A stretch of 64,000 nt of DNA from Phormidium tenue FACHB-1050 (GTDB lineage Bacteria > Cyanobacteriota > Cyanobacteriia > Pseudanabaenales > Pseudanabaenaceae), in the NCBI RefSeq assembly GCF_014696925.1, contig NZ_JACJQY010000008.1, positions 1 to 64,000 on the forward strand. The letters are read 5' to 3'. The position numbers and the translations under genes are program-made. This document shows positions 44,395-54,163 of this stretch, piece after piece. Numbering within the stretch: position 1 is the first letter of the stretch; each line of letters starts with the position of its first letter. Below the pieces are notes generated by a model. That model saw only the letters and a program-made list of their open reading frames with translations. It searched no databases and had not been told where the DNA came from.

Positions 44395-45087
44395 ATGACT
44401 GCAAAGAAAGTACTGGTAATTGACGACAGCATCATGATCCGCAAAATGGTTAAAAGCATTTTGGCGGGAAAATATGATGTTTTAGAAGCAAGTGATGGCA
44501 AATCAGGTTTAGATGCTGCTCGCCGAGCCTTTCCTGACCTAATTTTGCTTGATTTCGTGATGCCCAAATACAATGGCTATCAAACCTTACAGGCTATCCG
44601 TCGCGTCGAAGGATTACAAAAAGTTCCTGTAATCATGATCTCAGGGCTTAAAGAACAAGTTACTGAGCATGTGCCTGAGCCATTCACGGAGTTTGATTTT
44701 CTTGAAAAGCCCTTTGAAGCGGATGTGTTAGTAGCCCGCATTCAAAACTTTTTAACAACCGAACCTGCTCAACCCGTTTCAGCAGCTACGGCTCGATCAT
44801 CTGCACCTGCTGCGGTTAGAGAGATGCCGCGTGCCGAAGAACCAAGTCTGCAAATGATCGTCAATCGACTCACTGCGACTGAGACTTTGCTAGTACAAGG
44901 AATCGAAAATCTAATTCAACGTGAAGTTGTGGCGCGTTTTAATGAGTTAAATACTCGCATCGATCATCAAGATCAGGCGATCAATTCTTTAACTCAGCGC
45001 ATGGACAAAATCTCAGAACAAATCGATCATCAAAATAAAGGTTTGATGGTGATTTTGCGAGAACTAAAAGCTTTACAAAACAAATAA
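44395..45087 (+). CDS. response regulator with coiled-coil C-terminus
   Basis: 230 residues. A receiver domain (acidic pair D10-D11, phospho-acceptor D53 in LILLDFVMP, Lys in FLEKPFE) is followed by a Pro/Ala-rich linker (about 122-150). The C-terminal part is predicted coiled coil (RLTATETLLVQGIENLI ... MDKISEQIDHQN). There is no DNA-binding domain. A protein-interaction output, such as PatA/Hmp-like or chemotaxis/pilus motility control, is possible but unproven. It ends in a very strong bidirectional terminator and is transcribed away from rpoZ. Confidence 0.88.
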   Translation: MTAKKVLVIDDSIMIRKMVKSILAGKYDVLEASDGKSGLDAARRAFPDLILLDFVMPKYNGYQTLQAIRRVEGLQKVPVIMISGLKEQVTEHVPEPFTEFDFLEKPFEADVLVARIQNFLTTEPAQPVSAATARSSAPAAVREMPRAEEPSLQMIVNRLTATETLLVQGIENLIQREVVARFNELNTRIDHQDQAINSLTQRMDKISEQIDHQNKGLMVILRELKALQNK

Positions 45088-45129
45088 AAAAGGGGAGGCG
45101 CAAAGCGCCTCCCCTTTTTTATTTGTTTT
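45077..45129. terminator. strong terminator after response regulator
   Basis: AAAACAAATAAAAAAGGGGA arm and its complement around GGCGCAAAGCGCC. It begins inside the last codons and has a T-run on each strand. Confidence 0.9.
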
Positions 45130-45240
45130 ATAGCTGTCGACATTCTTGTTAGGACATAAAACCCAAATAGTGTGAGGCGGCGCGAAGCGCCGCCTCACAC
45201 TATTTGGGTTTTGATTTGTCCTGATACAGGCGGCTATAGC
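45129..45240. repeat. family-2 palindromic element
   Basis: Left end TATAGCTGTCGACATTC, perfect hairpin 45158-45212 with the AATAGTGTGAGG stem and GGCGCGAAGCGCC centre, right end the complement of TATAGCCGCCTGTATCAGG. Ends are in the opposite order to the copy at 28821. It is inserted exactly at the edge of the terminator. Confidence 0.85.
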
Positions 45241-45296
45241 TCCTCATACACTTGGTGACAGCTATAAATAGCTAGACATAATTGATTACAAAGCAG

Positions 45297-45338
45297 ACCC
45301 CTTAAAGTTTCGCCTCGCGAGGCGGAACTTTAAGGGGT
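45297..45338. terminator. hairpin downstream of cruF
   Basis: ACCCCTTAAAGTTTCGCCTC / complement with one mismatch around GCGA. It lies 25 bases past the cruF stop on the minus strand. Confidence 0.7.
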
Positions 45339-45363
45339 TTGGTAATTTATTTTGCACAAGTAC

Positions 45364-46290
45364 TTAACGAGTAGCAATTGTTTCTACTTTGGCGCTATCT
45401 ACTGCTATCACTGGGATATTTGTAGAAGAGTTAGCAATGATCTCTTGTTCGTCTTCGCCATTAGGGGTAGTCAAATAAAGTACCACAAGCGGCAAGGCTC
45501 CAACGACAATACCTAACAGGGCTGGCACGTAAAAACCTGCATTAAAGCTCAATATCAACGCAAACATAAAGTTTCCCGCATACATGATTGTAGGGAAAAT
45601 AATTTGTTGACGATTGAGAATTGGTTGATTGTCTTTGCCCCAAATTAGTGAGGCAACGGTCATAAATACGCAGCCAGTTCCGAACCAACCAAAAAAGTTT
45701 TGATAAGGCATTCCGTAGAATTCACCTGCTTGATGCCATTCCCAGAAAGGATAGGGTGTTTGGCTCATCGCGGGATCAAGTACAAAGTCCCATGAGGTTA
45801 GCATTAGAGAACCAAGAGCGATCGCCACAATTCTATAGACCCAGCTTGTACCGAAGCGCATCAGAGTTGCGGATACTAAAAACGCAGAAAATCCCATGTA
45901 AAACCATGACAGGGGAATTGTGAAAGGTACTAAATCTGCAATTTTGTAACCTAAACCACTGAGATAAGCATAAGCACCAAAAGGAAAACCAGTACTAGTC
46001 CCAAGTAATTCACTACTTAGGGAAAGCCCGATCGCAGGAATGCAAAATGCAAGTGTGCGCTTGAGCCCGATAGTTTGCTTTCCATAGAGGAAAGCGGCGA
46101 TCGCGCCAAAAATCATGTAGGATGCACCGCCATTTTGCATTCCCCATGAAAAGACTTGCAAACCAGCTTCAGATAAGCTTTCAATAAACTCGGTATTTGG
46201 CAGTACGAAAATCAAGCCAAATAGACCAAACACCATTGAAACTAGGTGCATTCCTAAATTAATCCATTGTGCGGGGATCGCTCTCCTCAT
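45364..46290 (-). CDS. cruF: gamma-carotene 1'-hydroxylase/hydratase CruF-like
   Basis: About 308 residues with seven or eight membrane helices. LGTSTGFPFGAYAYLSGLG and TSWDFVLDPAMS are the conserved blocks of the DUF422/CruF-bisanhydrobacterioruberin hydratase family. In cyanobacteria CruF hydrates the C-1' position on the way to myxol glycosides (myxoxanthophyll). A GTG precedes the ATG at 46290 by one codon. The crtD-like gene of the same pathway is about 17 kb away, and CruG was not found here. Catalytic acidic residues in WDF and DP are present. Confidence 0.88.
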   Translation of the reverse strand: MRRAIPAQWINLGMHLVSMVFGLFGLIFVLPNTEFIESLSEAGLQVFSWGMQNGGASYMIFGAIAAFLYGKQTIGLKRTLAFCIPAIGLSLSSELLGTSTGFPFGAYAYLSGLGYKIADLVPFTIPLSWFYMGFSAFLVSATLMRFGTSWVYRIVAIALGSLMLTSWDFVLDPAMSQTPYPFWEWHQAGEFYGMPYQNFFGWFGTGCVFMTVASLIWGKDNQPILNRQQIIFPTIMYAGNFMFALILSFNAGFYVPALLGIVVGALPLVVLYLTTPNGEDEQEIIANSSTNIPVIAVDSAKVETIATR

Positions 46291-46452
46291 CACGCCATTT
46301 ACTCCCAGAATTAGTTGAAATTTACTTGATTAAGTTTGAATTTTGCTTTAATTAACTTAACAAAAGTATAAACTAGCATACCATTCATTTTTGAGTTTGA
46401 TGTTTACAGCACTTAAAGCTACAGAATAGAGGCAGGGATTAGCACTATTGAC

Positions 46453-46962
46453 TTATTTTGTTGCCCAAAATGCTAAAAGCATGAGAGAAACGGCGATCGC
46501 AAACCACAAAAAGTTATTGTTACTTTCAGTATTTGGCTTCTCTAGGGGAACTTCGCGAAATGGCTTTTGATTATTAGTTGTAACGTTACTTCTGGGCGCA
46601 GGCTTAGATTGATAACTATCAGGTGATTGTAAAATGGGAACCTCCGATACAACACCTTCAAGTTTGCTCAGTTGTGGCGCAGTCAAAATTCCTAACATGT
46701 AACGGGCTGATTTCCGCACACTATTAACTGGGTGCTTTTTAAGGCTACGGCATAGGGCGATCGCCTCTTCAGTTCTACCCATTGCATCATAGGCATTGGC
46801 TAGCCATATGAGAATTTCGCCACCCAAAGCGGTTTCTAAAATGGCTAAAGCACGGGCGCGTTCGAGTAGGGCGATCGCCTGTTGATAGTTGCCACCCTCA
46901 AAGTTGCTCAATCCTTCTTGATATAGCTCCGACGCTAGTTGTTCCGCACTGATTTCTTCCAT
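46453..46962 (-). CDS. TPR protein with C-terminal membrane anchor
   Basis: 169 residues. Two to three tetratricopeptide-like repeats (ELYQEGLSNFEGGNYQQAI, WLANAYDAMGRTEEAIAL) are followed by a linker rich in Ser/Pro/Asn and a single C-terminal helix (FLWFAIAVSLMLLAFW) ending in ATK. This is tail-anchored architecture with the TPR part in the cytoplasm. No family name is assigned. It is separated by 160 bases from cruF and 140 from the Nudix gene. Confidence 0.8.
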   Translation of the reverse strand: MEEISAEQLASELYQEGLSNFEGGNYQQAIALLERARALAILETALGGEILIWLANAYDAMGRTEEAIALCRSLKKHPVNSVRKSARYMLGILTAPQLSKLEGVVSEVPILQSPDSYQSKPAPRSNVTTNNQKPFREVPLEKPNTESNNNFLWFAIAVSLMLLAFWATK

Positions 46963-47034
46963 CAGTAAATTTCTTACCTCGATTAGTAAAATTAGTCAGA
47001 CAATTGTGAACAAGAGTTACTTTATAGCGTTTAT

Positions 47035-47077
47035 CAATCTATTGTTTCCCCGCCAAAGGCGGGGAAACAATAGATTG
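47035..47077. terminator. hairpin after Nudix gene
   Basis: CAATCTATTGTTTCCCCGCC / complement with an AAA loop, perfect over 20 bases. It lies beyond the stop of the Nudix hydrolase gene (47100) on the minus strand. Confidence 0.8.
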
Positions 47078-47099
47078 CTTGAAAAGCTCTAAGACACGC

Positions 47100-47540
47100 T
47101 TATCCGCAATTTAATGATTTTGATTCTTTTAATGCATGGACTATTTGATAGTTAGCGGCGGGCAATTGATAGGTATCTAATTCATCAACCGTTACCCAAC
47201 GGATTTCTGAACAAGCGATCGCCTGTGGTTCGCCTGAAATATGCATACAGTGATGCACAATCAAACTTACTCTCAGTGTTTCATATTCAAAATCTACAGT
47301 GATCAAATGATCGCCAACTTCCACATCGATCGCTAGTTCTTCTTGCAACTCGCGCTTGATGCAATCCGTCGCAGTCTCATGCCCCTCAATCTTGCCACCA
47401 GGGAATTCCCAATAGCCAGCCAGTTCGCCCTCAGGCAACCGTCGATCAATCAGGATACGTTGGCGATCGCGATCCCAGACCACACCAACACCGATACAGC
47501 GATACTTTTTCGTTGTTAAATCAGTCCTCAAATTAGTCAT
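47100..47540 (-). CDS. MutT-type Nudix hydrolase
   Basis: 146 residues. The complete Nudix box GGKIEGHETATDCIKRELQE followed by ELAI (GX5EX7REUXEEXGU pattern) and the preceding WEFPGGK are those of 8-oxo-dGTP diphosphatase-like enzymes, which clean oxidised nucleotides. A short C-terminal domain has the SEIRWVTVDELD typical of MutT. The start ATG at 47540 overlaps the end of the cysK-like gene, so the two are translationally coupled. Note the frame could also begin with TTG at 47543. Confidence 0.9.
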   Translation of the reverse strand: MTNLRTDLTTKKYRCIGVGVVWDRDRQRILIDRRLPEGELAGYWEFPGGKIEGHETATDCIKRELQEELAIDVEVGDHLITVDFEYETLRVSLIVHHCMHISGEPQAIACSEIRWVTVDELDTYQLPAANYQIVHALKESKSLNCG

Positions 47541-48540
47541 CAATAAACTCCAGCCCTGTAGCCACTGGAGTTAAACCTTTTTCCGCGAGCCACTCTGGGT
47601 TATACATTCGGCTCTGATATCGACCACCACCATCACATAGAATTGTGGCGATCGTGTGACCTTTGCCTAGTTTACGTGCCAGTTTGACTGCACCAACTGC
47701 ATTTAAAGCGGCTGAACTGCCTATAAACAAGCCATCATGCTTTAGTAAATACTGTGCCATCTCGATTACTTGCTGATCAGTACCTTGGAAAGCCCCATTA
47801 AGTCTTGCTCGATTAAAGTTCGCTGTGGCTCGATTGATGCCAATACCTTCAGTAATCGAGTTGCCTTCAGCCTTAAATTCACCCGTAGTCACGTAACTAT
47901 ATAAACCTGAACCAGTGGGATCAATTAAATAAGTAGCAATTTGGGGATTTTGTTCTTTAAGATAAGCCGTCACACCGCCGATAGTACCTCCAGTACCAGA
48001 GGACATGACAATCCCATCCAGTTCGCCGCCAGTTTGTTTCCAGATTTCAGGTGCAGTCGTATAGTAGTGAGCGTCAGAATTAGATAAGTTCTCAAACTGA
48101 TTTGCCCAAAAAGAATTGGTAACTTCTTCCGACCGTTTTCGAGCAACGTGATAGTAATTATCAGGACTAGAAAAAGGCGCAGGGTTAGTCAGTTCTACTT
48201 CAGCACCCAGAGTCCTCAGTAAATCAATTTTTTCTTGCGACTGGTTACTCGGCATCACAATTACACTCCGATAACCACGCGCATTAGCTACGAGAGCTAA
48301 GCCAATGCCAGTATTGCCTGCCGTTCCTTCAACAATCGTGCCACCAGCTTTGAGGGTTCCAGCTTTTTCAGCTTCTAACACCATAAATAGAGCAGCGCGA
48401 TCCTTAACGCTACCACCTGGATTCAGAAATTCAGCTTTCCCTAAAATAGTGCAGCCTGTCGCTTCTGAAAGAGACTCGATTTTAATTAGAGGGGTATTAC
48501 CCACAGAGTTAGCAAAACCAATACGAATATCGCGTGTCAT
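47533..48540 (-). CDS. cysK: cysteine synthase A (O-acetylserine sulfhydrylase)
   Basis: 335 residues, a fold-type II PLP enzyme. The PLP lysine lies in GGSVKDRAA, substrate loop TAGNTGIGLA, phosphate-binding SGTGGTIGG. It forms cysteine from O-acetylserine and sulfide. The long ENLSNSDAHYYTTAPEIW insertion is typical of a cyanobacterial/CysK-like subgroup of ~330 residues. It is followed, overlapping, by the Nudix gene. Specificity between CysK and related cystathionine beta-synthase-like enzymes cannot be settled by eye. Confidence 0.9.
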   Translation of the reverse strand: MTRDIRIGFANSVGNTPLIKIESLSEATGCTILGKAEFLNPGGSVKDRAALFMVLEAEKAGTLKAGGTIVEGTAGNTGIGLALVANARGYRSVIVMPSNQSQEKIDLLRTLGAEVELTNPAPFSSPDNYYHVARKRSEEVTNSFWANQFENLSNSDAHYYTTAPEIWKQTGGELDGIVMSSGTGGTIGGVTAYLKEQNPQIATYLIDPTGSGLYSYVTTGEFKAEGNSITEGIGINRATANFNRARLNGAFQGTDQQVIEMAQYLLKHDGLFIGSSAALNAVGAVKLARKLGKGHTIATILCDGGGRYQSRMYNPEWLAEKGLTPVATGLEFIDD

Positions 48541-48812
48541 GGAATATTACAAGAGATGAACTACAGCAAAGATTTACAACTTGTTGATTAACTTCAGTAT
48601 ATTTGGGTCTGTAATTAGTTATATAGATATTTGCAAATTTGAATTTTCTGGGTTTATTACAGTTAGACGTTAGTTATCGCTAATAATCGCGCTAAATTAA
48701 CCAAATCTTGAAAATTAAAATTGGCGATCGCTATATGTGAATGAATGCATTACTTACCAAGCATTTTAAAGATGCATGACAGACACTATAAGTTCTATAT
48801 TACGGTAAACAT

Positions 48813-49265
48813 ATGAAATTCTTAGTTGCTATTGATGGCTCTCAAGCTAGCGAACATGCTCTTGCCAAAGCTTTAAGCTTTGCAGTTCCTCTAGAAGCCG
48901 AAATTGTCTTGTTGACTGTGGTTGAACCACTTAGTAGCTATATGCCTGAGGTCATGCTACCCACAGGTGATTGGGTTGGTTGGCGGGGACTGCCCGATGT
49001 GGAACTGGAGCGCAAAATCTTAAATGCAGGTCAAGCCCTGCTCCAAAAAGCCCAAGATACTTGCCAAGCTTCACAGATGAAAAACCGTACTAGATTGGAA
49101 ACAGGTCAACCTCGTGATGTAATTTGCTATGTGGCAAAAGAGGAAACTCCAGACTTAGTGATACTGGGATCGCGCGGGTTAGGTTCGATTGAACGTTTGA
49201 TGTTGGGGAGTGTGAGTGATTATGTAGTTCACCATTGCGTTTCACCTGTTCTGGTCGTGCGCTAA
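48813..49265 (+). CDS. universal stress protein (UspA family)
   Basis: 150 residues. MKFLVAIDGSQASEHALAKA at the N-terminus and LGSRGLGSIERLMLGSVSDY near the C-terminus give the ATP-binding G-2x-G-9x-G(S/T) motif, so this is the ATP-binding Usp subtype. Soluble dimer expected; role in stress adaptation, details unknown. Divergent from cysK with 270 AT-rich bases between, and followed by a perfect hairpin at 49273-49311. Confidence 0.92.
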   Translation: MKFLVAIDGSQASEHALAKALSFAVPLEAEIVLLTVVEPLSSYMPEVMLPTGDWVGWRGLPDVELERKILNAGQALLQKAQDTCQASQMKNRTRLETGQPRDVICYVAKEETPDLVILGSRGLGSIERLMLGSVSDYVVHHCVSPVLVVR

Positions 49266-49272
49266 AATTTCA

Positions 49273-49311
49273 ACAGTTTAGAAGTATTGCTAGTTAATAC
49301 TTCTAAACTGT
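49273..49311. terminator. hairpin after universal stress gene
   Basis: ACAGTTTAGAAGTATT / AATACTTCTAAACTGT with a GCTAGTT loop, perfect over 16 bases. Confidence 0.75.
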
Positions 49312-49316
49312 ATCTA

Positions 49317-49420
49317 ATACCAATTCACGAAAGTGTTGCCTCCACTTTTGTGAATTAAAGACCAAACCCAGTAAGGGTTTTAAAAACACAAAATGGCGTA
49401 GCCATTTTGTGTTTTGGTAT
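49317..49420. repeat. family-1 palindromic element, full copy
   Basis: Ends ATACCAATTCAC and GTTTTGGTAT. Hairpin AATTCACGAAAGTG... has one non-paired change, and hairpin AAAACACAAAATGGC is perfect. The start of the next gene may lie inside its right end. Confidence 0.85.
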
Positions 49421-49735
49421 AACAACGCGATCGCTACTACTTTGGATAATCTTCCCACCCGCCAAGTTCTTGTTTGTCAGCATCGCACCTGTGCAAAGGA
49501 TGGTGCGGCTAAAGTTTTGGCAACATTACAACAGCAAGAAATTGTCAAGGTAAGTGTAGAAGCTTGTGGCTGTTTGGGGCTATGTGGTTCTGGCCCCATA
49601 GTAGTTGTATTGCCAGACAATGTCTATTACTGGCGTGTTACTCCCAAAAAAGCTCAGACAATTATTGAAACGCATCTAATTGGCAATGTAGAGATCCGCT
49701 CAATGATGCATCCTCGATTACATCCGAATAATTAG
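49409..49735 (+). CDS. thioredoxin-like [2Fe-2S] ferredoxin-domain protein
   Basis: Up to 108 residues. QVLVCQHRTCAKDGA, then VEACGCLGLCGSGP, gives four cysteines in the C-x4-C...C-x3-C pattern of thioredoxin-like 2Fe-2S ferredoxins (NuoE C-terminal type). The domain seems complete; redox partner unknown. The start is uncertain: a GTG at 49409 lies within the right hairpin of a family-1 element, while a TTG at 49442 would start shortly before the domain. It is followed by a perfect hairpin at 49727-49769. Confidence 0.8.
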   Translation: MFWYNNAIATTLDNLPTRQVLVCQHRTCAKDGAAKVLATLQQQEIVKVSVEACGCLGLCGSGPIVVVLPDNVYYWRVTPKKAQTIIETHLIGNVEIRSMMHPRLHPNN

Positions 49736-49769
49736 AGGTGCGCGGCTTCGCCGCTCACCTCTAATTATT
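49727..49769. terminator. hairpin overlapping end of ferredoxin-like gene
   Basis: AATAATTAGAGGTG-GCGGCTTCGCCGC-CACCTCTAATTATT with small mismatch near the centre. It includes the stop codon. Confidence 0.8.
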
Positions 49770-50288
49770 CCAAAGCACTAGATGGGTTTGGCTTTTAATT
49801 CACTAAAGTGTTGCCATACTTTAGTGAATTGGTATAGCAAAGCAAGTTTTGTTTAGAACATAAAACCCAAGAATCGAGTGGCGGCGCTTCGCGCCGCCAC
49901 TCGATTCTTGGGTTTTGTTTGTCCTGATACAGGTGACTATAGCTATAAAGAGAGTTATACCAAATCACTTAGATAGGGCGACAGATGGGATTTTCACACT
50001 CTAAATATTGGTTTGGGTTTACGAGCATTTTTTAATAACCATCTGTCGTCTTTACTTTGTGTTTTGGTATTACATCGCTTTGCGCTCAAACCCAAACCAA
50101 GAAAAACCCTAAAAACTTTGCGAAGCAACGTTTTTAGGGTTTTTCTTTTGGTTCGTTTGATCGGTAATTGCTGTAGGTACAGAAAAGCCCACGTAGAAAC
50201 ATGGGCAAACTTGCGAATATTAAGTGACAGATACAGTCCTGAGAAGAAATTGATATCTTTCGCTCAACTCATAATTAAAAAAACAACT
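49736..50288. other. repeat-filled intergenic region
   Basis: No gene is credible here. It holds half a family-1 element (49783-49834, with a compensated A-T to T-A change in its stem), a family-2 element (49833-49944), inverted arms CGACAGATGG/CCATCTGTCG at 49979 and 50039, a family-1 right-end fragment near 50055-50071, and a long hairpin at 50096-50153 (AACCAAGAAAAACCCTAAAA arm, TTGCGAAGCAA centre). Confidence 0.75.
49833..49944. repeat. family-2 palindromic element with variant stem
   Basis: Perfect hairpin 49862-49916 with stem AAAACCCAAGAATCGAGTGG and the GGCGGCGCTTCGCGCCGCC core. Left end of the TATAGCAAAGCAAG type, right end complement of the CCTGTATCAGGAC type. Its left arm is the probable parent of the chimeric copy at 51707. 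Confidence 0.85.
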
Positions 50289-51221
50289 CTAGTAAGCTCC
50301 AAATCCAGACAAGACTTTTGGAACAGTCATAAACAAAATTTTCAAGTCTGACCACAAAGTCCAATGGCGAAGATAACTTAAATCGCACTCAGTAACTGCA
50401 TCTAGATCTAGCATCGTTGAACGAGCGCTTACTTGCCACGCACCAGTGACTCCTGGTAATGAATTTAATCTTCTTTTGCGATCGCCATTAATACGCAAAG
50501 CATCATATAAAGCCCAAGGACGAGGACCTACCAAACTCATTTCACCACGTAAAACATTGAAAAGTTGAGGAAGTTCATCAAGGCTATACTTACGCATCCA
50601 ACGACCTACGTTAGTAATCCTTGGATCGTCTTCACACTTATGCAATCCAGTTTGACCAGTCATTACTAGGTGGTGCAGTTTGTCAGCATCAGTAATCATG
50701 GTACGAAATTTAATGATTCTAAATAACTTGCCACCTTCCCCGACTCGCCATTGGTGAAAAAATATTGAACCACTTGAAGTCGTAGCAATAATCACAGCCA
50801 ATGCAGACATGACTGGGCTAAGGATTAAGAGAATAAATAAAGCTGCCAACCAATCCAAAGCCCGTTTTATTGTCCAAGTGATTGGCTTATTTATTTGTGG
50901 TAACTCATTTGTATGAGGCAGGTTTAGCAGCACAGATTTTTCGGATCTATAGCATACTTCAGCTAAATTTTTAAGTTTAGCTTCACCAATTTCAGGCTTA
51001 ACTTTCACTAAATTTAGTTTGGGTTGACTATGTTTATCAGATTTAGTGTTATTTGATATCAAGGATATGAAGGTAGTTAATTGATTACGAAAACTTGAGC
51101 CTAATGGAATTGTATTAATCTTAATTTGGTTAGTATTGAACATTGAATTAGATATAGATGAAATCTCTTTTTGTTGATCAATTTGAATTACTTGTGGTTT
51201 TTTGACAATAATCTCAGTCAT
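50289..51221 (-). CDS. undecaprenyl-phosphate sugar transferase (priming enzyme)
   Basis: 310 residues. A variable N-terminal ~115 residues lacks the usual four helices of WbaP. Then comes one membrane helix (about 122-150) and the catalytic PF02397 domain: FFHQWRVGEGGKLFRIIKFR, KYSLDELPQLFNVLRGEMSL, VGPRPW and GVTGAWQVSARS. It transfers a sugar-1-phosphate to undecaprenyl phosphate, the first step of exopolysaccharide repeat synthesis. Start has AGAGGTAAAA upstream. It stands close to a Wzc-like kinase and GT4 genes, so it is part of an export cluster. Confidence 0.92.
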   Translation of the reverse strand: MTEIIVKKPQVIQIDQQKEISSISNSMFNTNQIKINTIPLGSSFRNQLTTFISLISNNTKSDKHSQPKLNLVKVKPEIGEAKLKNLAEVCYRSEKSVLLNLPHTNELPQINKPITWTIKRALDWLAALFILLILSPVMSALAVIIATTSSGSIFFHQWRVGEGGKLFRIIKFRTMITDADKLHHLVMTGQTGLHKCEDDPRITNVGRWMRKYSLDELPQLFNVLRGEMSLVGPRPWALYDALRINGDRKRRLNSLPGVTGAWQVSARSTMLDLDAVTECDLSYLRHWTLWSDLKILFMTVPKVLSGFGAY

Positions 51222-51706
51222 TTTTACCTCTCTGTATATTCTTATATCTCTGATGCTTCAGCCTACCTAGTCTAGGTTTCAATAGTTTAATCTTGGTTAA
51301 TATTGATGCAGATATCGTAGAAGTTTTATGGTTAAGAAAATCTAATGTATCTGGCATAGCAAACATATTTTACTGATTAAGTCACCAATAGGTAAATTAA
51401 AAACAAAAAGATTTTTGTTGCTATAACATTTATGGATATGATTATTCTAAAAAGAGTCATATCTTCTTCGGTAAATTTGAAGATTTACATGATTTATCCA
51501 TATATACTTATCTATCAATTCCATCGATATAGCAACTACTAGAAGTTAGTAAAAGGTCATACTAAAAGTTATATAAAAGTTATATTTTGGCATTACAGAT
51601 TGTTGGAGTGTCTAATTTAGGTGCATATCCCACCCAAAAACATGAGAAAGCAGATGCATCGCATCTGCTTTCTCATGTTTTTACTTAACGTGAGTTCGGG
51701 ATAAGC

Positions 51707-51819
51707 TATAGCAAAGCAAGTTTTGCGTAGGACATAAAACCCCAGAATCGAGTGGCGGCGCTTCGCGCCGCCTCACACTATTTGGGTTTTGATTTGTCCT
51801 GATACAGGTGGCTATAGCT
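51707..51819. repeat. family-2 palindromic element, chimeric arms
   Basis: Left arm AAAACCCCAGAATCGAGTGG, as in the copy at 49862. Right arm the complement of AAAACCCAAATAGTGTGAGG, as in the copies at 9507, 28855 and 45158. Only the GC core and the AAAACCC foot still pair. This is the only family-2 copy here whose arms do not match. Confidence 0.85.
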
Positions 51820-51856
51820 ACACTAGCTAACTCTTTTTTTGCTATAAAATTTTAAA

Positions 51857-51942
51857 AGCCAAAACAGTAAAAGCCTTGCAAAGCAAGGCTTTTACTGTTT
51901 TGGCTCCTAGAGAGGATTAGCACCGCGAACCCTCTCTAGGAG
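51857..51942. terminator. two adjacent hairpins beyond the Wzc-like gene
   Basis: 51857-51905: AGCCAAAACAGTAAAAGCC / complement with a TTGCAAAGCAA centre. 51904-51942: CTCCTAGAGAGG / CCTCTCTAGGAG. Both lie just past the stop of the minus-strand kinase gene at 51974. Confidence 0.75.
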
Positions 51943-51973
51943 CTAGTTTGCAATTAACCCGAACTGAGGTTAT

Positions 51974-54163
51974 TTATGCTGTTTCCTCGTCATCGCTAAT
52001 GGCAACGGATTTGTAGGTATATGGCAAATCTTTAACTGCATTAGCAATTACCCCAATGAAATTCAGCTTTTGGAGAATAGATATAGCCTGCGAGAATTCA
52101 ACACGAGTAATTCGATCTATCCGAGCTACAGTAACTACTCCACCACAGCAGGAAGCTATTTGAATTGTGTCAACTGTTCCAAGAATAGGTGGTGAATCAA
52201 CAATGACAAGGTCATATTCCTGCTCAAAACTAGTGACCAAAGTTTGCATCCACTCTGAACTTAGTAAAGTAACGGAATCACTGGTAATTGGTCCAGCAGT
52301 AAGAATATCAATAGCTGAGTTGGACGATTGGATTACATCTTGACTATTTATACTGCCATTACTAGCCAGTAATGTTGATAAGCCCCTCTCATTTGGTAAG
52401 TTGAGTTGCTTATGTAAAGTTGGCGATCTCATGTCTGCGTCTATCAGTAGGACTCGTTTATGTAATCTTGCCGCACTAGTAGCCAGTCCAAGAGCGATCG
52501 TAGATTTACCCTCACCAGGTAGAGCCGAGGTAATTACCAGCGATCGCACGCTTATTTCCTGAGAAAAACTATTAATCTGAATATTTCTATAAATTACATC
52601 CAACCCTTCTCGGAAAGGCAACCACTTAACAATCTCAACTGTAAGTGGTGAAACTGGCTGACTTTTAAGAAACTGTGGTAAGAAACTAGGGCTTGATGCT
52701 TCAGTCTGCAAATATTGTGGAGTCATGCCCAATAAGGATATAGAAGCAATTTGCTGTTCTAACTCACTGTAGGTATGCACCGTATCATCTTGCATATCCC
52801 TAAGAAAAGCCGCCATACCACCAATAAACAACCCAGCAACTACTCCCAACAATAAATTTCGGCGTAAACTATCTGCTGCATCTGTAGAACCCAGCCCAGG
52901 TTCCTCAACAACTTGCCAATCAAAGCCACCTCGAGCAATTTCTAGACTTAACTCTTGGCGGTTTCTAAGTAATGTTTGTAATGTTTCTTGCAGAACTGTC
53001 AGTTTAGGTCTTAAAGATTCGTACTCACTGAGCAATTTGGGCAATCGATTAATTTCTGCTCGAAGATTTCGCTCTTGAGATGCCAAAGAATCAAGTCGAG
53101 ATAATGATAATGTAATCTGAGATTGGGTTTCTACAATTTGACTTGCTAAAGTTACATCAATATTACTTAGCTGATCGGCATTCCATTTGGAATAGCTAGT
53201 CAAATCAGCATCACCTAAAATACTTCTTCTCTCTTCTTCCAGACTACTCTGCTGTTGCCTAAAACGTAACTCAAGGGCTTCAACAATAGGATTAGTAGGT
53301 TGAAATCTAGCTTTTTCGCGATTTAGTGCAACTTCTATACTTTGCATCTCTACAATCAAGGCTTGATAACGAGGTGACTGATTTAATCGAGTAAGTAATA
53401 CAGCATCCTGTGAAGACAGGTTGAGGTTTTGTTGTAGAGAATCTAACCGAGTGACTGCTTGATCATATTCTAATTGGGCGGTGCGTTTTTGTTGCTCAAT
53501 CCCATTCAGGGCTGTTGTAATTTCTGTAACTCGCTGAGTAGCATCAAATAAATTATTCTTGCGACGAAATACTTCGAGCGCTTCAGCAGTTTCTGAGATA
53601 CTTTTACGCACATTGGCAACTTGCTCATCAATACCTGCCAAGCCTTTCTGCAAACGCTTTTCCTGCTGCTCTCGATTGTAATCAGTATAAACTTTTTGAA
53701 AAGCTCTTAAAACTGCTCTTGTCTTCACAGGATCTAAAGCTGTGTACTGTACTTCAACAATTTTGGTTGGATTTGCATTATCACCCAACATATTAATTTT
53801 TAATGATTGAAGTTCAGCGCCAGTAATGCCAGGATATTGATCGTTTAGCAAATCAGCAGCTTTTTGAAACAACGAAGAACTTTGCAGTAAATTCAGCTGT
53901 GTTGCATAGTCAATCTGGATATTTGAGTCAACAAATGAGGTTGTATTTGTATTGGATCTGTAAGTTGATTCGACCAGTAAACGCATGTTACTAGTGTATT
54001 TAGGCTTAGAGTTAATATTTATAAAAGCAGCAATTACCAGCCCTAAACTTAATCCGCCCAAAAGCCAAAGTCGTCTACGGGAAAGAACCGCAAAAATTTT
54101 CCCGTAGCCTGGATCTTGCTCGGAGAGGACTGGAGATGTTGAATTTGCAGCACTAATATTCAT
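51974..54163 (-). CDS. Wzc-like polysaccharide co-polymerase/BY-kinase
   Basis: 729 residues. Wzz chain-length domain with two membrane helices (about 32-50 and 437-457) and long coiled coils between. The C-terminal cytoplasmic tyrosine kinase domain has Walker A ALPGEGKSTIA, Walker A' VLLIDADMRSP and Walker B LVIVDSPPIL. It controls export and chain length of exopolysaccharide together with an outer-membrane porin. The C-terminal tail (DLPYTYKSVAISDDEETA) contains only two tyrosines, fewer than the clusters in proteobacterial Wzc. Upstream GT4 gene ends 46 bases before its start, same strand, so probably an operon. Confidence 0.93.
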   Translation of the reverse strand: MNISAANSTSPVLSEQDPGYGKIFAVLSRRRLWLLGGLSLGLVIAAFININSKPKYTSNMRLLVESTYRSNTNTTSFVDSNIQIDYATQLNLLQSSSLFQKAADLLNDQYPGITGAELQSLKINMLGDNANPTKIVEVQYTALDPVKTRAVLRAFQKVYTDYNREQQEKRLQKGLAGIDEQVANVRKSISETAEALEVFRRKNNLFDATQRVTEITTALNGIEQQKRTAQLEYDQAVTRLDSLQQNLNLSSQDAVLLTRLNQSPRYQALIVEMQSIEVALNREKARFQPTNPIVEALELRFRQQQSSLEEERRSILGDADLTSYSKWNADQLSNIDVTLASQIVETQSQITLSLSRLDSLASQERNLRAEINRLPKLLSEYESLRPKLTVLQETLQTLLRNRQELSLEIARGGFDWQVVEEPGLGSTDAADSLRRNLLLGVVAGLFIGGMAAFLRDMQDDTVHTYSELEQQIASISLLGMTPQYLQTEASSPSFLPQFLKSQPVSPLTVEIVKWLPFREGLDVIYRNIQINSFSQEISVRSLVITSALPGEGKSTIALGLATSAARLHKRVLLIDADMRSPTLHKQLNLPNERGLSTLLASNGSINSQDVIQSSNSAIDILTAGPITSDSVTLLSSEWMQTLVTSFEQEYDLVIVDSPPILGTVDTIQIASCCGGVVTVARIDRITRVEFSQAISILQKLNFIGVIANAVKDLPYTYKSVAISDDEETA

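Follow-up and report, generated by a model that had tools for sequence, protein, structure and literature searches.

Introduction

One of the closest described counterparts of the hairpins analyzed here is the correction of quasipalindromes by polymerase template switching, which is known from yeast genes, from rRNA and microRNA genes, and from E. coli reporters (PMC8604942, PMC8794818, PMC7202029). Homogenized arms and inverted spacers occur in those cases and in ours, and together they constitute the signature of template switching between inverted repeats (PMC8604942, PMC8794818). What distinguishes the present case is that the evidence is drawn from a mobile hairpin present in hundreds of copies, and that loop orientation is near random. 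It has long been asked whether stems stay perfectly paired through selection or through a mutational process. In this genus the two can be separated, since a single hairpin occurs there in hundreds of copies whose flank orientation and parent types are known and among which there are mixed intermediates.

The elements that carry these hairpins also have described relatives. MITEs that target TA (IS630/Tc1-mariner) are alike in their length of ~130 bp, high copy number, TAGC..GCTA inverted ends, TA duplication, and intergenic sites, whereas the present family has in addition a long perfect central palindrome and interchangeable arms. REP/REPIN elements and BIMEs (PMC3116915, PMC2817692) are likewise abundant intergenic palindromes that are often clustered, but the present elements are longer and TA-flanked, and no GTAG or CGTC tag was noticed at the palindrome ends of our four consensus types. 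Nezha and the other cyanobacterial MITEs, as they are cited in PMC10969869, are comparable as MITEs in cyanobacteria; every genome in which our searches located the present family is a Pseudanabaena. We found no account of the family in the literature searched; there, the template-switch mechanism is known, and the element family and the scale seen here appear undescribed.

Results

A Pseudanabaena MITE family with four subfamilies

The element is ~130 bp long, TA-flanked, and non-coding, has TATAGC..GCTATA ends, and lies in intergenic DNA. A strict pattern recovers 249 copies in this genome and between 1 and 176 copies in each of 25 congeners, and a DNA search of 32 genomes from other genera returned none. 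An exact 35-base piece is present, among named genomes, only in Pseudanabaena, and these matches together with the taxonomy place the source of the window in that genus. The site of one copy (g22_305786) is cleanly empty in this genome, where a single TA stands in place of two, delimiting the element as TAGC..GCTA. In its copy number, ends, and TA duplication, the family fits the definition of a MITE.

We collected 186 flank-bearing copies from 1.81 Mb of this genome. Most sort by their flanks into four subfamilies that are distinct at both the left and the right end: subfamily A with arms AAATAGTGTGA, B with arms AAGAATCGAGT and CAGAATCGAGT, C with arms AAAAGATGAGT, and D with arms AAGAAGAGAAT. 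No ORF flanked by MITE ends was found in the 1.81 Mb, and a search for an autonomous partner through end motifs and DDE_3 loci returned only an IS630-type element (locus L203, 956-2042) that has the terminal TATAGCAAT in common with the MITE. Its ends, TATAGCAATCC..GGATTGCTATA (TATAGCAATCCTAAATGA..TCATTTAGGATTGCTATA), share only ~9 terminal bases with the MITE; it is the best lead and a possible source of the mobilizing transposase.

A palindrome with arms of two subfamilies

In the window (the whole 64,000-nucleotide stretch of DNA that was analyzed), the first-pass annotation described a chimeric palindrome with arms from two different hairpin types. Our comparison confirms that this mixed palindrome is real. 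It spans 51738-51788, and its left arm (CAGAATCGAGT) differs at 7 of 11 positions from its right arm when the latter is read as a left arm (AAATAGTGTGA), around a core, GGCGGCGCTTCGCGCCGCC, that is perfect. Both arms are letter-for-letter identical to complete arms of other copies, which excludes chance.

All parts of the element with an assigned strand lie on the + strand. First comes a subfamily-B left end (TATAGCAAAGCAAGTTTTGCGTAGGACATAAAACCC, 51707..51742), which shows one difference from the B consensus and is followed by the left arm (51743..51753), a subfamily-B variant that is also present with matched arms at contig position 70042. The annotation had likened this arm to that of the copy at 49862, but that copy carries AAGAATCGAGT, and the CCCC-bearing arm is instead the exact variant at 70042. 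The common core, at which the two halves were presumably joined, occupies 51754..51772. As the annotation stated, the right arm (TCACACTATTT, 51773..51783) is the complement of the other hairpin type, here the subfamily-A arm AAATAGTGTGA, and it is continued by a subfamily-A right flank with a true right end (GGGTTTTGATTTGTCCTGATACAGGTGGCTATAGCTA, 51784..51820) that shows no difference from the A consensus. Judged by their sequences, the left half of the copy (end and arm) is thus subfamily B and the right half is subfamily A.

The feature does not stop at 51819, where the annotation had placed its end, but extends to 51846. The A right end closes with GCTA at 51820, and the bases that come next, CACTAGCTAACTCTTTTTTTGCTATA, are a B right end of the kind found in ~25 B copies. 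We read 51821..51822 as the probable duplicate of the target TA, now CA, and 51823..51846 (CTAGCTAACTCTTTTTTTGCTATA) as the tail of an interrupted subfamily-B element, since the same tail terminates ~25 B copies. The B consensus reads GGGTTTTGGTTTGTACTAGCTAACTC.

The mixed element is bracketed by AACGTGAGTTCGGGATAA and TTAACCCGAACTGAGGTTA (51688-51972), which are seemingly the termini of another mobile element; a transposase gene in the congener G022 has similar ends around it. In that genome an insertion sequence disrupts the ortholog of the sugar transferase gene at 50289-51221, and a second copy, nearly identical, lies ~1 kb away. A hairpin at 51636-51682 reads AACATGAGAAAG.. here and AACAGAGAAAG.. 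in the congener G005, a one-base length difference that is matched on both arms.

Probable nested insertion and loss between cores

The arrangement of the locus is what a nested insertion followed by a deletion would leave. A subfamily-A element would have landed at GTA|CTAGC (GTACTAGC), within the right half of a subfamily-B element, duplicating the target TA of that site and placing two identical 19-bp cores in the same orientation ~88-90 bp apart. Slippage or recombination between these cores would then have removed the B right arm and the A left half, and the remainder, consisting of B-left, a single core, A-right with its true A end, and the B tail, would form a hairpin with mismatched arms. 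Built in silico, the product of the two steps equals the observed locus except for one substitution and a 2-base gap. Because the empty site described above gives the TA duplication, the gap can, in our own reading, be taken as one T-to-C substitution once the duplicated TA is counted, and the model then has two base differences overall. We infer the order of events and the deletion pathway. No intact nested B::A precursor was found at this site among the 19 congeners that have the orthologous region, nor was the unmixed ancestor that the annotation had proposed to look for found there; the element is absent at this position from all 19.

The annotation took the mixed copy as direct evidence that such elements recombine through their cores. 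This part of its claim is supported in that the core appears to have served as the joining site; the exchange, however, was probably between nested rather than distant copies, because a B tail lies beyond the A end and congeners show synteny for the genes to the left and right. The mixed copy is good evidence for local core-to-core joining.

Cores are identical across subfamilies, so an alternative to nested insertion has to be weighed, namely an ectopic exchange, by crossover or gene conversion, in which A and B copies far apart met through their common core. Elements with hybrid flanks but no second tail, at 49862 and at C4:101716, are in its favor. We nevertheless think such an exchange quite unlikely here. 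The B tail directly follows the A end, which makes the second junction a transposon end and not a stretch of homology, the flanking gene order is that of congeners, and the reciprocal A-left/B-right hybrid was sought and none was found.

The flanking synteny bears equally on the assembly. The genome is a draft in 89 contigs and contains 249 similar copies, and the collapse or misjoining of a nested B::A copy, or of two repeats, through the core would yield the same product. Syntenic genes on both sides nevertheless exclude that distant loci were joined, 19 bp is a short repeat for an assembler to mistake, and two of the genome's five mixed copies (C12:239898 and C13:46320) are arm-only replacements with intact A ends, which no collapse makes. 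An assembly artefact is therefore highly improbable. Taken as a whole, the explanation that we consider probable is a composite of nested copies with a core deletion at this locus, together with upkeep of the arms by template switching in the other copies.

Mixed copies lie beside or within other copies

According to the annotation, all other hairpins of the family have matching arms. The copy at 51738-51788 is indeed the only strongly mixed one in the window, but in the genome as a whole a pattern that demands a mismatch at the first arm bases recovers five, compared with a total of 249 copies, which confirms for this genome that mixed-arm copies are rare. The same pattern, which is blind to mixtures like the mixed copy G014:C72:15937, returned zero in the 25 congeners; G014 and G004 are a close pair, 95.9% identical.

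The four further mixed copies lie outside the window, each beside or inside another copy, and all five are accompanied by a neighboring copy or by what remains of a nested one. C71:10126 has the same layout of nesting plus deletion, built from an A and a D element. C13:46320 has A ends on both sides and a right arm that exactly matches the element directly upstream; elsewhere in the sample this arm occurs only in that element, 114 bp away, which makes the neighbor the likely donor. C12:239898 also has A ends on both sides, with a right arm one base off that of the element directly upstream, and in C3:47861 an A arm sits in a C element, with an A copy 104 bp away. Exchange is thus local, in better accord with slippage or template switching over ~100 bp than with recombination among distant copies. 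As a statistic, the clustering of mixed copies is only suggestive, because matched copies also cluster: 47 of 163 in the 1.81-Mb sample have another core at most 200 bp away, far above the even-spacing expectation, which suggests frequent insertion of one element into another. Insertion of one copy into another with loss of the DNA between cores would provide a route to new hairpin types.

The copy at 49862 (49837..49949, + strand) is a hybrid with a B left end, matched B arms, and an A right end. The B-left/A-right pattern occurs in exactly three elements of the genome, with arms A/A, B/B, and B/A. Resolution of mixed arms would yield this trio, but crossovers in shared flank sequence without arm correction predict it too, and we therefore rejected it as proof of arm resolution. 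A subfamily-A element with matched arms at 45133..45269 (+ strand) is absent from the orthologous site in G022.

Arm identity and loop orientation

The annotation further suggested that the perfect match of the other copies is restored by some process acting on palindromes. The mixed copy alone proves neither a restoring process nor the youth of mixed copies, and the suggestion does not follow from it; separate tests on paired arm variation, loop orientation, and orthologous loops do support it.

Within flank-defined subfamilies, we counted 34 paired and 4 unpaired changes in 1023 arm base pairs, where independent change at the per-site flank divergence of ~3.5% would, by our arithmetic, give ~72 unpaired and 0.4 paired changes, in a comparison whose flanks are possibly constrained and whose copies have common ancestry. 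Counting distinct variants only leaves 19 paired and 4 unpaired changes, and shuffling the right arms among copies gives a mean of 66 mismatches (minimum 48) against the 4 observed. The paired rate of 0.033 is near the per-site flank rate, as expected if each mutation is equally likely to be copied to the other arm or erased by it.

The 3-nt loop takes its two orientations with nearly equal frequency. Relative to the flanks, GAA and TTC occur 25:19 in subfamily A and 16:11 in C, while the two orientations number 16 and 13 copies in B and 6 and 5 in D; other loops are few. As GAA and TTC are reverse complements, the center has been turned round many times. Among 36 well-aligned orthologous hairpins of this genome and G022, 9 loops are exact reverse complements, 12 are unchanged, 14 are otherwise changed, and 1 is self-complementary; permutation gives a mean of 2.7 exact inversions and a maximum of 7 in 2000 trials. 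Loop inversion is thus not limited to the mobile family. The arms of the same 36 hairpins show 22 paired and 19 unpaired changes, the latter indicating that correction is not instantaneous.

Both an excess of paired arm changes and exact spacer inversion, by which template switching is recognized, are therefore found here. A nascent strand may switch template inside the palindrome during replication and copy one arm from the other, and the same switch may turn the 3-nt loop round. Arm identity would then be kept mainly at the DNA level, by arm-to-arm copying, with polymerase template switching as the likely agent, and the mixed copy would in time resolve to B/B or A/A.

Selection on an RNA hairpin, such as a bidirectional terminator, could instead preserve arm identity through successive compensatory mutations. 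Many of the hairpins lie at gene ends. The predicted stability of the RNA stem is very high where the arms match (about -49 to -50 kcal/mol) and is halved by the mixed arms (-24.4 versus about -49 kcal/mol). Selection on the stem could contribute to the paired changes. Yet selection that acts on pairing offers no explanation for loops that are exactly inverted, or for paired changes being as frequent as single changes in the flanks. A consensus scan for terminators across the mixed copy's intergenic stretch (51222-51973) found none, and no Rfam family matched within 45000-53000. We judge selection unlikely as the main cause and favor arm-to-arm copying.

More tentatively, and with some doubt, palindromes in Pseudanabaena might be rewritten from arm to arm at about the pace of point substitution, in which case the two bases of an arm pair would evolve as a single site and loops would turn freely. 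Diversification of mobile hairpins could then proceed by whole palindromes, with mixed copies as short-lived states awaiting resolution, and the high rate would be set by a trait of the host's replication or hairpin repair.

Two further hairpins in the window overlap gene ends. A perfect 28-bp hairpin at 45074-45132 includes the last codons and the stop of a gene in its left arm, which its right arm mirrors; in G022 it has the same arms with the loop inverted from AAA to TTT. A 21-bp hairpin at 49726-49770 lies over the stop codon of the ORF at 49409-49735 and is absent from the G022 ortholog, which ends in HPN instead of HPNN, indicating that the right arm of the palindrome mirrors the gene end.
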